Position numbers and translations under genes: made by a program
The notes under the pieces: generated by a model
Seen by the model: only the letters and a program-made list of their open reading frames with translations
Database searches by the model: none
Told to the model about the DNA's origin: nothing
Shown: positions 14,444-61,700 of the stretch, piece after piece
How the letters are laid out: each line of letters starts with the position of its first letter
How positions within the stretch are numbered: the first letter of the stretch is position 1
DNA from: Bacteroidetes bacterium 2013_40CM_41_45
Lineage (GTDB): Bacteria; Bacteroidota; Bacteroidia; AKYH767-A; 2013-40CM-41-45
DNA: 64,000 nucleotides
Direction: 5' to 3'
NCBI GenBank assembly: GCA_002215675.1
Contig: NGFH01000004.1
Coordinates: 248,001-312,000, forward strand

Positions 14444-17400
14444 ATGAAAACAATCTACGCCGAGAAGGTCAGAAAATTTTTTCTGATTCTCTCCTTAAGT
14501 ACAATTTTTATTTTTTCAGGTAATGTATCCTATGCCACGCACTGTGCAGGAGGCGACATACAATTTTGTTGGGTTGGACCGGGAGTAAATGATTACCGGT
14601 TCACGTATACTTTCTATCGCAATTGCGGAAGCCCTGCTAATTGGAATCCTGCTCCTGAGCCTGCTTCAGTAACGCTGAGACTGATTTCAGCAACGTGTGG
14701 AATAAATACAGTATTTACACTGAACCAGGCGCCCCAGCCAAACGGAACAGAGGTTTCTCTTGCATGCGGCAGTGTTCTTACCTCGTGTGATACTGCTATT
14801 GGTGGTGTTCAGGGATACAGAAAGTGGGTTTATGTTGGCAATTATACTTTGCCTACCCAATGTACCGACTGGGAATTCAGCGTAGACGTAAATGCACGTA
14901 ACCAGAATATTACTACTCTCAATAATCCGGGAGGTCAAAGTTTGACGGTGCGCGCTACGTTGAACAATGTACTTGCACCATCGGATTGCTCCCCGGGTTT
15001 TTCCAATCCGCCGCTTGCATTTCTTTGCGTAAACCAGGCTATGACTTATAACCATGCTGCTATTGATGCCGATGGAGATTCTCTTGTATATAGTTTGGTC
15101 GACCCCCTTCAATCGATTGGCAACGTGATTCAGCCGGTTAATTACCTGCTGCCATTCAGCACGGCAAATCCCCTTTCAAACACCAATTTAGTTCTGAACA
15201 CGCAAACCGGTGAACTGAATGTGACACCTACTGCAAACGGAGAATTGGCTGTGCTTGCTTTCCGTGTTGATGAATACAGAAACGGCCAGTTGATAGGAAG
15301 TGTAATGAGAGATATGCAGGTTTATGTAATAGTTTGTAACAATGATATTCCTGTTGCATCCGGATTAAACAATACCATAAATTATGCTGCAACTATTTGC
15401 TCCGGTGTGCAATCATGTTTTACCATTAATTCTTCTGACAATAATCCAAACGATACCGTAACCATGACATGGAATAATGGTATTCCGAGTGCATCTTTTG
15501 TTATTGCAGGTACCCCGCATCCAATAGGAACTTTTTGCTGGACTCCTACTGCTGCTGATGCCGGACTCAATGTATTTACAGTTCAGGTTCGGGATAATGC
15601 TTGCCCTATCAGAGGCGCTCAAACATTTACATATTCAATAACAGTTGCTCTGCCTCCTGTTATCGGCTTTGCCGGTGACCCCAGTATTTGTGTGGGTGAT
15701 TCAACCACCATTACGGCAGCGGGAGCTGTTAATTATGTATGGTCCCCTAATTCATTTATCAATACTACTTCCGGTTCGGTTGTAACCGTTTATCCTCCGC
15801 AGACGCAAGTATACACCGTTCAGGCTACAAGCGCTGACGGATGTACAAGCACCAGTTCTATTTCTATTATTGTCAGCCCGAACCCAATTGTATTTACACC
15901 TTCTAACCCTGCAGTATGCCAGGGCGGAAGCATGACGGTAAACGTAACCGGAGCTTTTTATTATACATGGTCTCCTGCGACAGGTATTATCAGCTCAAAT
16001 CCTGACAGTTCTTCCGTAGTGCTTGGCCCAAGCCAAACGACTATATATACGGTTGTCGGTCACTCACAGGAAGGTTGTACCGGATCAGGCACATTCACCT
16101 TTACGGTGAATCCAAATCCTATCCCTGTTGTCGGAAGCAATTCTCCGATATGTGCCGGTGCACAGCTTAACCTTACAGCGAGTGGTGGCACAATATATTC
16201 CTGGACAGGACCTAATAGTTTCTCTTCAGCAAATCAAAATCCTTCTGTCTCAAATGCTACTGTAGGAGCAACAGGAAATTATTCGGTGATTGTTACCAAT
16301 GCCAACAATTGTTCGGCTACCGGCTCGGTAAGTGTTACTGTTAATGCTAATCCTGTTCCTGTAGTGGGAAGCAACTCACCGATATGCGCAGGTTTCCCGC
16401 TTAACCTTACCGCAAGCGGTGGTACCGGTTATTCCTGGACGGGACCTAATAGTTTCTCTTCAGGAAATCAAAACCCTACAATCTCGAATGCTACAGTGGC
16501 TGCATCAGGAAATTATTCAGTCATTGTCACTAATGCTAACAATTGTTCATCCACAGGCTCAGTAAGTGTTACTGTTCATGCTAACCCTGTTCCTGTGGTT
16601 GGAAGCAATTCACCCATATGCTCCGGTTCACAACTTAACCTGACCGCAAGCGGTGGCACAGGATATTCCTGGACAGGGCCTAATAGTTTCTCTTCAGCAA
16701 ATCAGAACCCTTCCATCTCCAATGCTTCTGTTGCTGCTACCGGAAATTATTCAGTAGTGGTAACCGATGCCAACAATTGTGTGTCTACCGGTTCTGTAAG
16801 CATTACAGTTAATGCTAATCCTGTTCCTGTGGTTGGAAGCAATTCACCCATATGCTCCGGTTCACAGCTTAATCTTACCGCAAGCGGTGGCACAGGATAT
16901 TCCTGGACAGGGCCTAATAGTTTCTCATCAGGAAATCAGAACCCTTCCATCTCCAACGCTTCTGTTGCTGCTACCGGAAATTATTCAGTAGTGGTAACTG
17001 ATGCTAACAATTGTGTATCCACCGGTTCTGTAAGCGTTACTGTTAATGCTAATCCTGTTCCTGTGGTTGGAAGCAACTCACCGATTTGTGATGGCTCACA
17101 ACTTAACCTTACGGCAAGCGGTGGCACTGGTTATTCCTGGACAGGGCCTAATAGTTTTTCATCAGGAAATCAGAACCCTTCAATTCCCGCTGCTTCAACG
17201 GCTGCAACAGGAAATTATTCAGTAGTTGTTACGGATGCCAACAATTGTGTATCCACCGGTTCTGTAGGTGTTACTGTTAATTCTAATCCTGTTCCGGTAG
17301 TTGGTAGTAACTCTCCAATCTGTGCCGGTTCACAGCTTAACCTTACTGCAAGCGGTGGCACTGGATACTCCTGGACTGGACCTAATAGTTTCTCGTCAGG

Positions 17401-18661
17401 AAATCAGAATCCTTCCATCTCCAATGCTCCTGTCGCTGCTACCGGAAGTTATTCAGTAGTGGTAACCGATGCCAACAATTGTGTGTCTACCGGTTCTGTA
17501 AATGTTACTGTTAATGCTAATCCTGTTCCCGTAATCACACCTAATGGCCCGCTTAGCTTCTGTATCGGAGGTTCTGTTACCCTCGATGCCGGAACATGGG
17601 TTTCATATTTGTGGAGCGGCCAGGGAGAGATAACTCAAACGATAAATGTAACGGTAAACAGAACGGTTGATGTAACTGTTATGGATGCCAACGGATGCTC
17701 AGCAATGTCTGCTCCTGTTACTGTTACTGTTAATCCTCTTCCTCCTGCAGTGGTAACTCCTCCGGGTCCTGTGCTGGTTTGTTCCAACAATCCCGCAACA
17801 CTTTCAGCAAATACCGGTATTGGTTATCAGTATCAATGGTTCTTTAATTCTACGGCAATTCCGGGTGCAGTCAACAGTCAATATCTTGCAGCCGGAGCCG
17901 GGCTTTATAAAGCACAAATTACAGACGCAAACGGATGCTCATCTACTTCGAACGAAGTACAGGTTATTGCCGGAGTTGGCCCTGATGTTACTATATCATC
18001 TCCGCCACCTTTTGGTTGTCAGCAAAATGCTATCTTCATTGGATATGGCCCTCAAAGCATAACCCTTACAGCGGTTGCTCCCGGGGCTGCTTCATACCTC
18101 TGGTTCCCTGATAGTCAGACAACTCAATCTATCGATGTTACTCAACCGGGTGAATACAGCGTTATTGCTTATGATGTCAATGGATGTCCGTCTCCAAGCC
18201 CGGCAGTGCTTTCACCGGCTATCCAGATGATTGATATCCGTTGCGGCCATGATTTAAAGAAAGTAATCCTTTGTCACGTTCCGGAAGGTAATTTCTATAA
18301 CCCTCAGACCATTTGCATAGGGCCGTCCGCAATTGAGCCCCACCTGAGACTGCACCGCTGGGATTGTTTAGGGCCTTGCAGCTTATACTACCCACAGCGC
18401 AGCACGGATGTAGTAGAAGATTTTTACGCGGTACCTTATCCTAATCCGTTCAATACAGCTTTCAATCTCCAGATATTCACTGCTTCTAATGAAGTAGTTT
18501 ATGTGAAAGTGATTGACGTTATGGGCAGAGTGGTTGAATCATATTCTGAAGTAGATGAGCAAACCCAAATCGGGGAAAACCTTGGAGCCGGTGTTTACAC
18601 CGCCATCGTTACCCAGGGTGAAAACAGACGGATGGTTCAGATTATTAAAACTGCGAGGTAA
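14444..18661 (+). CDS. Large secreted Ig/PKD-like repeat protein with T9SS type A sorting tail
   Basis: 1405 residues. An N-terminal hydrophobic signal (FFLILSLSTIFIFSGNVSYA) precedes an ATHCAGGDIQFCWVGPG opening that I associate with large surface proteins of Bacteroidota. About 450 residues of cadherin/Ig-like sequence follow. Next come six near-identical repeats of about 77 residues (NPVPVVGSNSPIC...LNLTASGG...SWTGPNSFSS...NYSV) and further PKD/Ig-like modules. The last 80 residues (YPNPFNTAFNLQIF to GAGVYTAIVT) are a T9SS type A sorting domain. It is probably a surface adhesin or matrix protein. No enzymatic domain was seen. A rho-independent terminator follows 22 bp after the stop. The repeats are discussed as a separate feature. 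Confidence 0.93.
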   Translation: MKTIYAEKVRKFFLILSLSTIFIFSGNVSYATHCAGGDIQFCWVGPGVNDYRFTYTFYRNCGSPANWNPAPEPASVTLRLISATCGINTVFTLNQAPQPNGTEVSLACGSVLTSCDTAIGGVQGYRKWVYVGNYTLPTQCTDWEFSVDVNARNQNITTLNNPGGQSLTVRATLNNVLAPSDCSPGFSNPPLAFLCVNQAMTYNHAAIDADGDSLVYSLVDPLQSIGNVIQPVNYLLPFSTANPLSNTNLVLNTQTGELNVTPTANGELAVLAFRVDEYRNGQLIGSVMRDMQVYVIVCNNDIPVASGLNNTINYAATICSGVQSCFTINSSDNNPNDTVTMTWNNGIPSASFVIAGTPHPIGTFCWTPTAADAGLNVFTVQVRDNACPIRGAQTFTYSITVALPPVIGFAGDPSICVGDSTTITAAGAVNYVWSPNSFINTTSGSVVTVYPPQTQVYTVQATSADGCTSTSSISIIVSPNPIVFTPSNPAVCQGGSMTVNVTGAFYYTWSPATGIISSNPDSSSVVLGPSQTTIYTVVGHSQEGCTGSGTFTFTVNPNPIPVVGSNSPICAGAQLNLTASGGTIYSWTGPNSFSSANQNPSVSNATVGATGNYSVIVTNANNCSATGSVSVTVNANPVPVVGSNSPICAGFPLNLTASGGTGYSWTGPNSFSSGNQNPTISNATVAASGNYSVIVTNANNCSSTGSVSVTVHANPVPVVGSNSPICSGSQLNLTASGGTGYSWTGPNSFSSANQNPSISNASVAATGNYSVVVTDANNCVSTGSVSITVNANPVPVVGSNSPICSGSQLNLTASGGTGYSWTGPNSFSSGNQNPSISNASVAATGNYSVVVTDANNCVSTGSVSVTVNANPVPVVGSNSPICDGSQLNLTASGGTGYSWTGPNSFSSGNQNPSIPAASTAATGNYSVVVTDANNCVSTGSVGVTVNSNPVPVVGSNSPICAGSQLNLTASGGTGYSWTGPNSFSSGNQNPSISNAPVAATGSYSVVVTDANNCVSTGSVNVTVNANPVPVITPNGPLSFCIGGSVTLDAGTWVSYLWSGQGEITQTINVTVNRTVDVTVMDANGCSAMSAPVTVTVNPLPPAVVTPPGPVLVCSNNPATLSANTGIGYQYQWFFNSTAIPGAVNSQYLAAGAGLYKAQITDANGCSSTSNEVQVIAGVGPDVTISSPPPFGCQQNAIFIGYGPQSITLTAVAPGAASYLWFPDSQTTQSIDVTQPGEYSVIAYDVNGCPSPSPAVLSPAIQMIDIRCGHDLKKVILCHVPEGNFYNPQTICIGPSAIEPHLRLHRWDCLGPCSLYYPQRSTDVVEDFYAVPYPNPFNTAFNLQIFTASNEVVYVKVIDVMGRVVESYSEVDEQTQIGENLGAGVYTAIVTQGENRRMVQIIKTAR
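16117..17530 (+). repeat. Six tandem ~231-bp coding repeats inside the Ig-like protein
   Basis: Six consecutive copies encode an Ig-like module that begins (N)P(V/I)PVVGSNSPIC and ends GSVSVTVNA. Copies 3, 4 and 6 are almost identical at the DNA level, while copies 1, 2 and 5 have diverged more (for example ICAGF, ICDGS). The similarity suggests recent duplication or gene conversion. Copy number is likely to vary between strains, and short-read assembly could collapse it. Confidence 0.9.
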
Positions 18662-28841: not shown

Positions 28842-28850
28842 GGGTTGCAG

Positions 28851-28939
28851 TTATAAGTTATACGTTATAAGTTATACGAAAAAATGTACATGCATAAAAG
28901 CATATAACATATGACATATAACGTATAACGTATAACGTC
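28851..28939. repeat. Inverted heptad array between amidase and mlaD
   Basis: The left arm is four exact heptamers (TTATAAG, TTATACG, TTATAAG, TTATACG). A core of about 22 nt rich in ATG/CAT follows. The right arm is five or more inverse heptamers (CATATAA, CATATGA, CATATAA, CGTATAA, CGTATAA). The arms could pair into a long hairpin. No reading frame lies in the core. The array occupies most of the 112-bp gap. Confidence 0.85.
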
Positions 28940-40827: not shown

Positions 40828-42093
40828 ATGCCGGCCGTGTACAACATTTCAATTTTTTTCTATAAGCTGGGAATTCGTATCGCGGCATTATTTGGAAATG
40901 AAAAAGCCGGGCAGTGGATTGAAGGCAGAAGAAATGTATTCAGCAAACTCTCCGAACTCAGCACTTCCAACCACAGACTAATCTGGTTTCACTGTTCTTC
41001 GCTGGGAGAATTTGAGCAAGGAAGACCGGTAATGGAGAAATTAAAAATTAGGAACGCAGAATGCAGAATTATTTTGACTTTCTTTTCTCCTTCCGGATAT
41101 GAGGTGAGAAAAAATTATGCAGGAGCTGACTTTGTTTGTTACCTGCCGATGGACAACAGAAAAAATGCAAAGCGGTTTGCAGAGCTCTTACAACCGCATG
41201 CAGCTTACTTTGTTAAATATGAGTACTGGCATTATTATTTTCATGCACTTAAAGAAAAGAATATTCCGTTATACATGGTATCAGCCATTTTTCGCGATGA
41301 CCAGGTATTTTTCAGGTGGTATGGAAAATTTTTCAGGAACATGTTGAAATGTGTGACTCATTTTTTTGTCCAGGATAATTCCTCACTAAAAAAAATAAAT
41401 TCACTCGGATTCAACAACGCAACAGTTGCCGGCGATACACGCTTTGACCGCGTTGTTGAAATTTCAAATGATGCTAAAGAATTTCCGTTGCTTGAAAAAT
41501 TCAGTGCAGGGAAAAAAGTAATTATAGCTGGCAGCACATGGCCTAACGATGAGAGAATTCTTTTTAACCTCAAACCTCAAACCTCCTTCGGTCGCCATAG
41601 GCTTGCCGAAGGCGATGCAAACCTCAAACTTATTATCGCTCCGCATGATATTTCTGAAAGCAGAATAAAAGAGGTGGAAAATCTTTTTGCCGGAAATAAA
41701 ATCATACGCTATTCTCAAGCCAATGAACAGGATATTTCAGATAAAAGTGTTCTGATTATCGACAGCATCGGAATGCTTGCTTCACTTTACAGGTACGGTT
41801 GGGTTACTTATGTAGGCGGAGGATTTGATAAAGGCATACATAATATTCTGGAAGCAGCTGTCTACGGCAAGCCCGTTTTTTTCGGACCCCGCTATCAAAA
41901 GGCAGGCGAAGCAATTGCGCTGATAGAAAAGGGGGGAGCGTTCGCAATCGCTGACGCAAATCAAATGGTGAATGTTCTTGAGAAATTTTCGGGTGATGAA
42001 ACTGATTATTCGAATTCGTGTGAAGCCAGCAGGAGGTTTGTTTATGGAAGCACCGGGGCTACAGAAAAAATCCTGAAAAAAACTTCAGGCTGA
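40828..42093 (+). CDS. waaA: 3-deoxy-D-manno-octulosonic acid transferase
   Basis: Transfers KDO from CMP-KDO to lipid A precursor at the inner membrane. The 421 residues have a membrane-anchoring N-terminus, the catalytic-glutamate segment HCSSLGEFEQGRPVMEKL near 52-69, VCYLPMD, KYEYWHYYFHALKEKNIPLYMVSAIFR, IAGSTWPNDE, LIIAPHD and the donor site WVTYVGGGFDKGIHNILEAAVYGKPVFFGPRYQKAGEA. All of these fit the family. Between STWPNDERILFNL and LIIAPHD there are about 18 extra residues (PQTSFGRHRLAEGD and neighbours) encoded by a repeat-rich segment (41566-41630). The frame is intact and the site is a surface loop before the C-terminal domain, so the enzyme may still work. Confidence 0.93.
   Translation: MPAVYNISIFFYKLGIRIAALFGNEKAGQWIEGRRNVFSKLSELSTSNHRLIWFHCSSLGEFEQGRPVMEKLKIRNAECRIILTFFSPSGYEVRKNYAGADFVCYLPMDNRKNAKRFAELLQPHAAYFVKYEYWHYYFHALKEKNIPLYMVSAIFRDDQVFFRWYGKFFRNMLKCVTHFFVQDNSSLKKINSLGFNNATVAGDTRFDRVVEISNDAKEFPLLEKFSAGKKVIIAGSTWPNDERILFNLKPQTSFGRHRLAEGDANLKLIIAPHDISESRIKEVENLFAGNKIIRYSQANEQDISDKSVLIIDSIGMLASLYRYGWVTYVGGGFDKGIHNILEAAVYGKPVFFGPRYQKAGEAIALIEKGGAFAIADANQMVNVLEKFSGDETDYSNSCEASRRFVYGSTGATEKILKKTSG
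41566..41630 (+). repeat. In-frame heptad repeat insertion in waaA
   Basis: Three AACCTCA-type heptamers stand at the left and one or two at the right, around a core with the inverted repeat CCTTCGG/CCGAAGG. The segment sits inside the coding frame and adds about 18 residues relative to what I expect of the family. It is built like the intergenic arrays, but with its own word. Confidence 0.7.
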
Positions 42094-55711: not shown

Positions 55712-58700
55712 CTATCGCCTTAGGTCTACATAACCATGCAATACTCTTCCCTCCGGATATCTGGTTGACTTATTAATACTCAGAATAACAAAATAAGTTC
55801 CGTCGGGCAGAGGTTTGCCAGAGTTTTCATCTCCCGTGTTGTTTTGCCCGAACCAGGAATTCTCATGATTATTGTAATTCGTCTGTTCAAAAACTAAGTT
55901 GCCCCAACGGTTGAATACTTTGAAATTATTTTCCTTGTTGAAAGAATATTCAATGCAATGTATAACAAATAAATCATTATACGAGTCACCATTGGGAGAG
56001 AATGCAGTCGGCATTTCAAGGCACGTTGAATCACATACTTCCGGAATAAGCTTGGTAATTAAAACAGTATCATCATCAATGCACGGGCCGTTGGTAATTG
56101 TCCATACAAGGGTGTTGCTGCCCCATCCAAAATTACGTGCGAAGGTGTTAGGGTCAAAAGGATTATCAAAGGTGACAGGCGAAGTAAGCGGAGGAACTTT
56201 AGACCACATTCCAACTCCGACATAACTACTGTCTGCATGCAGGCGAATGGGTTCATCATCATCGCAGATAGGAGGATAGGAGCCGGCATTTGCATTAACA
56301 TGCTCAAATGCCCTTATAGTAACGGAGTCGAACGCAAGGCATGTTGCATCACCTACCCACCAGATGAATATGTTATCGCCATAACTTAAACCGGTAACTG
56401 TAACAACCGGGCTAAGTGTGTCGGGAGAGAATGTTCCTGTTCCGGCTGCGATAGTCCACCATCCGGTGTAAATGGGCAACGGAGTATCAGCCACTAATAC
56501 TATGGTTGTATCGCAAATGTCTGTATTGGGTGTTAGAATAATAGCAATGGGCTGGTATGGGTCTGTAATGGTAACAGTATCGGTAATCACACAACCGTTA
56601 GCATCGGTAATGGTAATGGTATATAATGTTCCCGAACCGAATGCAGTGGTGTCGCAAATCGTGGAATCAGTGAAGGCAGTAAACTGCGGAGGTATGGTGC
56701 TCCACTGGTACGTGTATGCGGGAGTTCCGCCAAAAGCAAACGCATGCATCCATGCATCGCAGGCATGAGGACAGGTTGTGTTGTATGGAGGATTAAGCAA
56801 TGAAACATTTATTGAATCGGCAAGAGGCGGTGGCTGGGTAAGAGTTACGCTCGCAGATGCTGTACAGCCGTTGACATCGGTAACGGTTACAGTGTAAGTG
56901 GATGCACATAGATTAGAATCTACAGATAATGTATCGGTGAGCGGTGCTGTTGACCAGGAGAATGAGTACGGTGGAGTTCCGCCGCCGGGAGTTGCCGTAG
57001 CAACACCATCGCAGGCGCCCGCACAGCTTACGTTCCAGCCACCGTTGAAAGTATTCAATGCAACGCTTACCGTAACCGGAGGCGGTTGAGTAAGCGTGAT
57101 AGATGCTGTGGCAGTGCATCCGTTGGCATCTGTAGCGGTTACTGTATAGGTTGTTGCACATAATCCTGTAGCAGTATCATTAGCTTGGGTATTGCTCCAC
57201 AGATAAGAGTATAATGGAGTTCCACCCGATGCTGTAGCTACGGCTTGCCCATCACACGCACCATTGCAGCTAACATTCCATCCACCGGGGAAGGTGTCTG
57301 CAACAATTGCAACGGTAAGCAGAGGCGGCTCGGTAAGTGTAATACTTCCGGTCACCGTACATCCGTTGGCATCGGTAACAGTAACCGTATATGTTATTGC
57401 AGTCAATGTGTTGGTTGTGGTTTGAGTCAAATCGCCATTTGACCATACATAGGAATAGTTAGGTGTTCCACCGGAAGCATAAACAGTTGCCTGTCCTAAA
57501 GCATCTCCGTTGCAAGGTTCATTCCATCCGTTATATAATACAGCGGTGATGGAGTCGATAACAAGCGGTGGCGGTTGGGTAAGAGTTACACTTGCTGTTG
57601 CAGTACAACCATTCGTATCGGTTGCAGTTACGGTGTAAGTCGTAGCACATAACCCTGTAGCAATTTGAGTATTTTGGGTATTGCTCCACAAATAAGTATA
57701 ACCGGGTGTACCTCCTGCTGCAGTTGCCGTTGCTTGTCCGTCACAAAGGCCATTGCAGCTCACATTCCATCCGCCATTAAAAGTATCAAGTACAATGGAT
57801 ACTGTTAGCACAGGTGGTTGAGTAAGCGTAACGGATGCTGTTGCCGTGCAGTTGTTAACATCTGTTACAGTTACCGTATATGTTGTAGCACATAATCCTG
57901 TAGCGGTTTGGGTAGCTTGGGCCGGAACAGTGCTCCATACGTAAGTAAATGGGCCAGTTCCTCCGCTCGGGTTTGCCGTTGCCTGTCCGTCACAAGCGCC
58001 ATTGCAGCTTACATTCCATCCACCGGTAAAGGTTCCTGCGGTAGCTGACGCTGTCAGCAAAGGCGGTTCAGTAACCGTATAACTGGCGGTTCCGCTACAT
58101 CCGTTTGCATCGGTAACGGTTACCGTATAAGTCCCTGCACAAATGTTTACAATAGTTTGTGTTACCTGATTTCCCGGGGGAGACCAGAGGTACGAATAAG
58201 GACCTGTTCCGTTTGTTGGAGTAGCTGTTAATGTGTCGAGGCAGTTTCCGTTGCATGGTTCATCCCAACCGTTGAAATTGCTATCAGTAATTACAATATT
58301 AAGAACGACAGCCGAGCCGGAAGGAGCAATAGAAGTTGTGGCAGTGCAACCGTTAACATCCGTAACGGTCACCGTATAGGTTCCAATGCAAGCATTAAAT
58401 AAAGTGTCGGTGCCATTGGGACAAGGAGGTCCCGGTGGCGTCCAGCAATATGTATAAGGACCAATTCCACCGGCAGGAAATGCAACAATGGTATCGGTAC
58501 AACCCGCATTGCAGCTTGCTGCTGAAGAAGTCAAACTCACCGAAAGTGCTGTAGGTTCTATCAATGTAACCGTGTCAACTATAGAGCAACCGTTGATATC
58601 AGCGATTAATACTGTATAAGTTCCTGCACATAATCCTATAGCCGTTTGGGTATTTTGGACCGGACCGGTACTCCAGACGTATGAGTAAGGTGCAGTTCCT

Positions 58701-61700
58701 CCGCTTGGATTCGCTGTTGCTGAACCATCGCATGCACCGTTGCAGGTAACGTTAACGGTATCAAAGAAAGATACAATAATGGTATCCATCAGAGGCTGCG
58801 GTTCGGTAAGTGTAATGGTATCAGAATGGGCTATGCATCCGTTGTCATCGGTAACCGTAACAAAATAAATAGAGACTGAAACATCGTTGGCAACCGAATC
58901 CACATCTCCATTAGACCAATCGTAGAGGTACGGAGGACAGCCCCCGGAAGGGAAGACGCGCACGTTACCTGTAGTGTCAGCATTGCAGCAAATATTCCAG
59001 CCGCCAACGCAGGTGTCTGCCGTTAATGGAGGTATTACAAGAGGAGTAGGTTCGGTAAGTGTTACTGAAGCAGTGGCGGTACAGCCGTTATCATCCGTTA
59101 CTGTCACTGTGTATGCTATAGCGCATAGGCCTGTGCAGGTTTGGGTAGAACAAGGTGAGGACCATGTATAAGAATAAGGAGGCGTGCCGCCCACAGGATT
59201 AGCCGTTATTTCCCCGTCACACGCGCCATTACAGGAAATATTTGCTCCGCAGTTGCGCACAAGAGGAGAAAGTGAAACGCTCAATGCAGGTGGTTCAGAA
59301 AGATTAAAAGTTAAAACTGTATCGCATCCGTTACCATCTGTTACAGTTACTGCGCAAGCGCCCGCGCATAATGTTGAGTCAGTTGTTTGGGTCGTATCGC
59401 CATTGCACCACAAGTAGTGGTATGGAAGAGTGCCTCCGCTTGGATTAGCGGTTGCAAAACCATCGCACACGCCGTTACAACTTACATTCCATCCGCCGTT
59501 ATAAGTTCCAATGCTAAGTGTTGCCGTAAGCAAAGGAGGCTGTGTAATATTATTATTGTCCGATGCGCTGCAGCCATTGGTATCGGTAACTAAAATAGAA
59601 ATAGGCCCTGCGCATATAGCGTATATGGTATCACCGGCTGCGCTGAACGTGGGAACTGACAAGGGAGGATATGACCACGAATACACATAAGGAGGCGCAC
59701 CTCCGGAAGCCGTAACATAAGCAGTACCGTCACAAACGCCAAAGCAGCTTATCGGATTTCCTGCATTAAGAATTACTACCGTAATCAGGGCAAGAACAGT
59801 GTCGGGCTCGGTAACCGTTAAGGTATCGGTAAATGAACATCCGTTTACGTCAGTAACCGTCAACATATAAGAGCCTGCGCATAAGTTGACTGCAGAATCA
59901 ACGTTGGAAACATTCGGTGTCCAGTTAAATGTGTAGGGAGGGCAACCACCAACTACATTGGAATAAATTTTTCCGTTACATTCTCCATGGCATCCTATAT
60001 TAAATCCGCCCGGAGTAAGCGGGCTTACAATGGAATCATAAACAGCAGCGGGCTCAGTAAGCGTTGCTGATATAGAAGATGTGCATCCGCTTGCATCTGT
60101 AACCGTAACAGTATAAGTTCCTGCACCTATGCCGGACACATCTTCTCCTTCATCAACAGGGCAACCACCCGGAATATGGCTCCAGTCGTAGCAGAAAGGT
60201 GCCGTGCCCCCGTGGGTAGTAATGTCAAGGAATCCATCTAGTGCACCGTTGCAACTTACCTGGTACCCGCATATAAAGGATGAAATATCATCTATGGTAA
60301 GGTAGAGAGAATCTGGTTGAGTAATTAGTTTACAGGTATCTCCGGTGCAACCGTTGACATCTGTAACAGTAACACATATTAATGTACCGCCTCCCTGTCC
60401 CGTAATGCATTGGGTACTGAGCAGGCTGGGAGTCCATAAATAGGAGTAGGGAGGTGTACCTCCGGTTGGTGCAGCACAGGAAGTATCATCCGCAGCTCCA
60501 AAGCATGAAACATTATTACCATTTATATTAACGCTTGTTATCAATGGAACCAACACGGCGGGCTGGCCAACTATGGCGCATGCTGTATCGGTGCAACCAT
60601 GCAGGTCGGTACAGGTAATGCAATATGTTCCGGCAGGAATGTTGCAGATATCCTCTGTTGTAAAGCCATTCGACCAGATGCAGCTGACCGGCGCTGTTCC
60701 CCCGTTAGTATGTGAATAAATACAACCGGTAGATTCACCGTTACATCCTGCGTTTTTGACAGAATCGACCACCACAACAAAAGTGGCAGGTTGGGTAATA
60801 GTTATGGTAGATGTTGCTACGCACGCCCCGCCACCGGTAGTGACAGTAACGGTGTAGGTTCCAATGCATAAGCCGCTTCGGTCTTCAGTGGTTGGTCCGT
60901 CATTCCACACAAAGGAATAGGGAGGGCTTCCACCGGTAACCGTTACATCAATGCTTCCATCGCAAACGCCATTGCAGCTTGCATTTACATGTGTTTGAGA
61001 AATATGAATAGAATCAAGTGTAACTACTATCGTATCCACCGTAGTATTGCAATTGGCAGGTTTGAAAAGGTGGTCTGTAACAAAAAGCCTGTAGGTACCG
61101 GCGGCATTGGCGAAGAAAATAGAATCTGAATCAACAATAACGTTTGAAGAGTTTCTCCATGTGTAGGTATAGGGAGGCACTCCGCCTGTTGCGCTTCCGG
61201 TAAGGGTAATTCCCCCCTGTGCGGCACAGAATTTTGCCGGGCTCGGATTAATATTAGCAACCAGGTTGCCGAAGAAATAAACTCTCACCGTATCGCAGAA
61301 TGTTGAACTAAGGCCGGGGCAATTGCTCGCAACAGCATTTCCGCAAACCCTGTAATCTACAAATGCAGGCGGTGTGCCGGTTGGCGTGACTCTTACAGAG
61401 GTTGAACTATCAGGAAGATGAGCGAATGGAGCAGACAGGAAAGAATTATACTGGCCGGGTACGCCCGGAAAAATTGAATTCCATGAAGAGCCGGTAATCT
61501 TTACCCCGAAATATGTCAAAGTATCAAAACATCCTACGCGCACAGAATCATCAGGAATAGGAGTAGGGCGGGGTATAGACGTTAAGCAATACTGATTTAA
61601 ATTATTGCCGGGTTTGCAGAAACTTATGGTATGTAGTCCGGGAGTGGAGATGCATCCCAATGTTCTTATGTCCAAGGGTCCTCCGCAATCAATATTATAA

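Follow-up and report, generated by a model that had tools for sequence, protein, structure and literature searches.

Heptanucleotide arrays and an in-frame hairpin module in a waaA loop: a putative case of length-neutral overwriting in conserved enzymes of a Bacteroidota class

Related repeats in other genomes

Heptamer repeats as such are already known. Two papers (PMC4679880, PMC4692102) cite Mrazek (2007) for the excess of heptanucleotide repeats and for a proposal that polymerase slippage generates them. Described units include TAACTGA in the Beggiatoaceae (PMC4679880) together with GGGAATC in Xanthomonas and GGGGA(C/T)T in Nostoc (PMC4692102). As of 2015, the latter paper stated, heptameric repeats had received no detailed treatment in the literature. 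The heptads analysed here share with heptanucleotide LSSR, cyanobacterial STRR and the Beggiatoaceae TAACTGA repeats an organisation of dispersed tandem 7-mers with several copies per site, found also in Bacteroidota, and the limit that stop codons place on orientation within genes. In those families, however, one unit dominates, and most sites are reported from intergenic DNA or from the ends of proteins, whereas the present heptads comprise many units per genome, recur at fixed internal loops of essential enzymes, are mostly length-neutral, and show unit replacement between congeners. The open-licence literature yielded no account of heptads that repeatedly overwrite conserved enzyme loops while leaving loop length unchanged.

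Coding repeats that change in concert while function is kept are known as palindromes from nematomorph mitochondria (PMC6649704), and template switching in yeast homogenises inverted repeats, keeps coding repeats perfect, and alters proteins (PMC8604942). Both systems involve inverted repeats, whereas the present case concerns direct 7-nt repeats in bacterial chromosomal genes. The BrickBuilt MITE/minisatellite of Porphyromonas gingivalis (PMC4596501), likewise from the Bacteroidota, also joins a tandem repeat to inverted-repeat ends but, unlike the present heptads, has a 23-nt unit and is always intergenic. Rickettsia palindromic elements (RPEs) resemble the hairpin module described below in being dispersed, palindromic, and inserted in frame in conserved genes at a predicted loop; the heptad part of the present tract, in contrast, is not a net insertion.

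The waaA tract and its hairpin module

The open reading frame that carries the tract in our window, by which we mean the whole 64,000-nt stretch analysed, is a genuine waaA and encodes an essential lipopolysaccharide enzyme (Table 1). Its product matches Pfam PF04413 (1.9e-43) and, below the curated cut-offs of those models, the NCBIfam waaA models (best 8.4e-44); the sequence also matches PDB entries 2xci and 4bfc, and a fold comparison with the predicted model ranks 2xci first (E 1e-18). An Rfam search of 40-43 kb of the window gave no match above threshold. As had been noted in the preliminary description, the frame stays open across the tract (41566-41629), which consists of the three consecutive parts listed in Table 1.

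Table 1. Features of the waaA locus in window coordinates
Feature	Position	Strand	Basis or remark
waaA (kdtA), lipid IVA Kdo transferase	40828..42093	+	ORF, 421 aa; Pfam, NCBIfam, PDB, fold
Second, weaker heptad array, GCAGAATGCAGAAT	41052..41069	+	Loop near residue 76; period-7 score 8.5
5' heptad array part, AACCTCA AACCTCA AACCTC	41566..41585	+	Sequence; TRF period 7, 2.9 copies, 100%
33-nt hairpin module, CTTCGGTCGCCATAGGCTTGCCGAAGGCGATGC	41586..41618	+	11 codons, offset two bases from codon frame; between two heptads, in phase
3' heptad array part, AAACCTCAAAC	41619..41629	+	Sequence; WaaA alignment

Three tandem AACCTCA heptamers and a further copy had been described here. Exact copies begin at 41566, 41573 and 41620, but the third tandem copy agrees at only 6 of 7 positions (AACCTCc, 41580-41586). 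The inverted core was found as described, CCTTCGG (41585-41591) facing CCGAAGG (41606-41612), with a fold z of about -3; the segment 41583-41620 folds at -16.3 kcal/mol. At the 3' end, AAACCTCAAAC followed by TT reads AAC CTC AAA CTT, or N-L-K-L, and the WaaA alignment shows that this is how the next beta strand begins in the family itself (xLKLIIAPH).

The distance between the anchors GSTWxxD and IIAPH is 27 aa in this protein and 13-20 aa, plus one of 26, in the 34 WaaA relatives measured (median 17), so that the net gain is about 10-11 residues rather than the 18 proposed previously. Removing the 33-nt module joins AACCTC to AAACCTC in perfect phase, leaving four AACCTCA heptads and a 16-aa spacer. 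Judged from these comparisons, the in-frame insertion is the RPE-like 33-nt hairpin, and the heptads occupy a loop of ordinary length without net insertion. Other WaaA proteins, against what an insertion of the whole tract had implied, have loops of equal length encoded by unrelated DNA, the exception being the 11 hairpin-encoded residues. In the predicted model, as had been anticipated, a loop spans residues 247-265 and links helix 239-246 to strand 266-272; pLDDT is < 50 at residues 251-262.

We located 8 copies of the module in the 3.38-Mb genome, none with more than one mismatch in a 27-nt core; two further copies with 3 mismatches occur in one sister genus of the same family, and a search of the remaining 59 genomes gave 0 copies. 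At up to 3 mismatches, 0 matches are expected in the window. Three of the 8 copies are flanked by AAACYTC heptads in phase, and others by CAYCCC..[TA]AACCC, after which a CTCTCC-type palindrome often follows; the association with heptads could have arisen if a single composite was copied. By eye, the three heptad-embedded copies show no target duplication. One copy lengthens a FolP-like ORF at its C-terminus, where the reading frame is the one used in waaA (FGRHRFAEGEA). Palindromes of the CTCTCCAAAGGAGAG type accompany several module copies (L005, L004, L006).

The preliminary description took the tract to show that the heptad class can enter coding sequence as RPEs do. The comparison holds for the 33-nt module, which is palindromic, folds as a hairpin, is dispersed in the genome, and adds residues in frame both in waaA (11 aa) and at the FolP-like C-terminus; it does not hold for the heptads, which are not a net insertion. 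Described RPE families are larger than the 33 nt and 8 copies of this module. The expectation that the DNA unit recurs in the genome was borne out for the hairpin and for AACCTCA units, which are dispersed. As a single word, AACCTCA shows no enrichment in the window (5 occurrences against 7.1 expected).

Heptad arrays in this genome and across the class

Tandem 7-nt arrays number 34 in 464 kb of this genome against 3 in a Markov-3 control, although genome-wide densities from this sample are not unbiased, since it was partly chosen to include known matches. Within the same 464 kb, period 7 stands far above all other periods except 14 and 21, and the arrays fall into 20 unit classes, many of the arrays lying inside genes. 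The tandem 7-nt units thus exceed other periods and a shuffled control, as in LSSR and STRR, but the number of unit classes and the recurrence at internal loops depart from the mainly intergenic, one- or few-unit pattern, which is a reported habit of some of those families and not a strict definition. Heptads also occur in ValS, a carboxyltransferase, TsaB, an ABC-F protein, IspG, and type IX secretion tails. Exact three-copy AACCTCA arrays are confined to this genome among 61, and we accordingly rejected them as a family-wide marker; a shorter AAACCTC array is found in G006.

Several further repeats were seen in passing. In TsaB (L087 7947-8675, - strand), AACCTCA heptads adjoin a different, second palindrome (CGAGACATGCATCGTCTCG), and the loop is about 12 aa longer here than in relatives, which differs from the waaA and valS pattern. 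Four proteins (L078, L074, L075, L077) carry heptads at similar loops of their type IX sorting domains or C-terminal regions, with differing units (GGTCATT, AAATCGT, AACCTCA, and ACAACAA-like). Within the window, facing arrays of GTTATAA/GTTATAC and GTATAAC form an intergenic inverted repeat at 28849-28938, and large coding tandem repeats lie at 16101-17570 and 56589-61186, with periods of 234 nt and about 246 nt; their products are probably adhesin-like surface proteins.

Among 162 waaA genes of the class, 15 arrays have period 7, compared with 11 of period 14 and 0-6 of other periods, and 14 of the 15 cluster at query residues about 48, 75-78, and 250-262, three short loops that each sit between a helix and a strand in the predicted model of the window's WaaA. 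Besides the window's gene, at least seven waaA genes have arrays in the loop near residue 76, which measures 15-16 aa with arrays against 16 (IQR 16-16) without; none of the six arrays scored there departs from the array-free modal length by more than 2 residues, and +7 intermediates are absent. For the residue-48 loop, length was anchored on a fixed 28-residue window. At exactly the loop occupied by the tract in the window, G056, from another family, has four copies of CCAACTG and a normal length. In valS (92 genes of the class), 13 of 18 period-7 arrays lie at residues 453-460, in about ten families and with nearly all units different; the anchored array loops (n=11) measure 32-34 aa against an array-free mode of 32, all 11 being within 2 residues of that mode and, again, lacking +7 intermediates. 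The clustering of the waaA arrays and that of the valS arrays were not reached in any of 20,000 random placements. Because arrays occur in only two genes at the much more length-variable ValS loop around 205-225, length tolerance alone does not predict array sites. In that loop, this genome carries AAATCCG heptads, and two other genera (L103, L107) carry the unrelated-looking inserts SPPDSYRDHPKEG... and SPPAPQRGDQSPSLGG.

Synonymous-codon shuffles within the gene leave 2.3 arrays (maximum 6) of 15 in waaA and 3.6 (maximum 7) of 18 in valS, and the amino-acid sequence alone was therefore rejected as the source of the 7-nt period. Array-free loops show no excess of residual 7-nt signal, which speaks against a native seed and favours discrete steps or fast decay; N-x-K-L codons as a seed in every native loop were rejected on this ground. 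Taken together, the alignments indicate that the same few waaA and valS loops are repeatedly rewritten as ever-different heptads, mostly without change of length.

Turnover is visible within a single genus (g38), seven species of which have perfect or decayed arrays at waaA loop 76, with no alignment gap and with differing units, such as TTCAAAG, TACAAAG, TTGAAAA, ATCAAGA and RTCAAGG. G190 and G205 differ by a T->A change that recurs, in identical phase, in each of the five copies, and a loop 7 aa longer in G098 shows that 21-nt steps occur. Units are also shared among loci: AAGTACA occurs at several other loci in G205 and G098, AAGTTCA is dispersed in G133, G206 and G162, and CCAACTG is found elsewhere in G056 as well as in other genera. 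IspG of the window's genome and that of G133 have different units at the same two loops. Read in reverse, AAGTACA heptads encode LYFVLCT (L432, L455, L437, L444, L453), a reading found in lipoprotein-like signal peptides and one membrane-like segment, and array orientation seems to match protein context.

Competing accounts and possible consequences

We think it fairly probable that the waaA loop is a composite of a heptad array and a hairpin added later in phase, the array deriving from a class-wide, length-neutral copying error in a 7-nt register. A four-copy AACCTCA array would first have occupied the ordinary-length helix-to-strand loop of WaaA, and the 33-nt hairpin would later have been inserted between two heptads, preserving the heptad phase and, as a multiple of three, adding 11 residues. 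The copying error would be linked to replication, either as misalignment and realignment or as a brief switch of template to a heptad array, whether in cis or at another place in the genome; local sequence would be overwritten with tandem 7-mers without net change of length, and the units would then be homogenised. Most products within genes would be lost, whereas those in tolerant loops would survive. Overwriting of this kind predicts equal length, mixed units, concerted change, and unit sharing within genomes, all four of which are observed. We infer the copying mechanism, the order in which its steps took place, and that the change is effectively neutral for the enzyme.

Entry into waaA of an entire RPE-like mobile element, heptads and hairpin together, would account for the dispersed and in some cases heptad-flanked hairpin copies and is compatible with the open frame. 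It would, however, have added the full tract of roughly 21 codons, of which the net gain is only half; the loop has a normal length once the hairpin is set aside; and the flanks of the module vary among its copies. Because insertion of the whole tract predicts longer loops than those seen in waaA and valS, we rejected it, and consider the element account as a whole improbable. Selection on the protein for a repeating loop peptide, with the DNA periodicity as a by-product, draws on the fact that the loops precede conserved hydrophobic-Lys-hydrophobic strand starts, which seven-residue peptides fit. We regard this as very improbable, since a 7-nt offset is not a codon offset and the period is thus the mark of a DNA-level process; moreover, the synonymous shuffles abolish most of the periodicity, and unrelated sequence suffices at these loops in other species.

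Ordinary slipped-strand mispairing, in which only 21-nt changes survive and selection restores loop length, would need no special copying step. It has precedent in the slippage proposal of Mrazek (2007), as cited in PMC4679880 and PMC4692102, and could draw on the longer G098 loop, while length neutrality could also arise from +21/-21 slippage filtered by selection on length. The absence of +7 intermediates among the near-modal valS and loop-76 arrays and the units common to unlinked loci of the same genome speak against it, however, and we regard slippage by itself as unlikely.

Returning to the composite reading and its copying error, we would propose only tentatively, and with more doubt than confidence, that 7-nt template-switch mutagenesis is active in the class, such that tandem 7-mers from a genome-specific set overwrite short pieces of coding sequence and the survivors mark tolerant loops of essential enzymes and turn over within a genus. 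The old puzzle of the 7-nt preference among bacterial tandem repeats becomes directly testable here, with the same loops in many species, known lengths, and many independent units. If the proposal is true, the process would generate clustered, parallel changes of several residues in conserved proteins, a pattern that mimics positive selection, and the surviving arrays would provide natural insertion-tolerance maps for essential enzymes.
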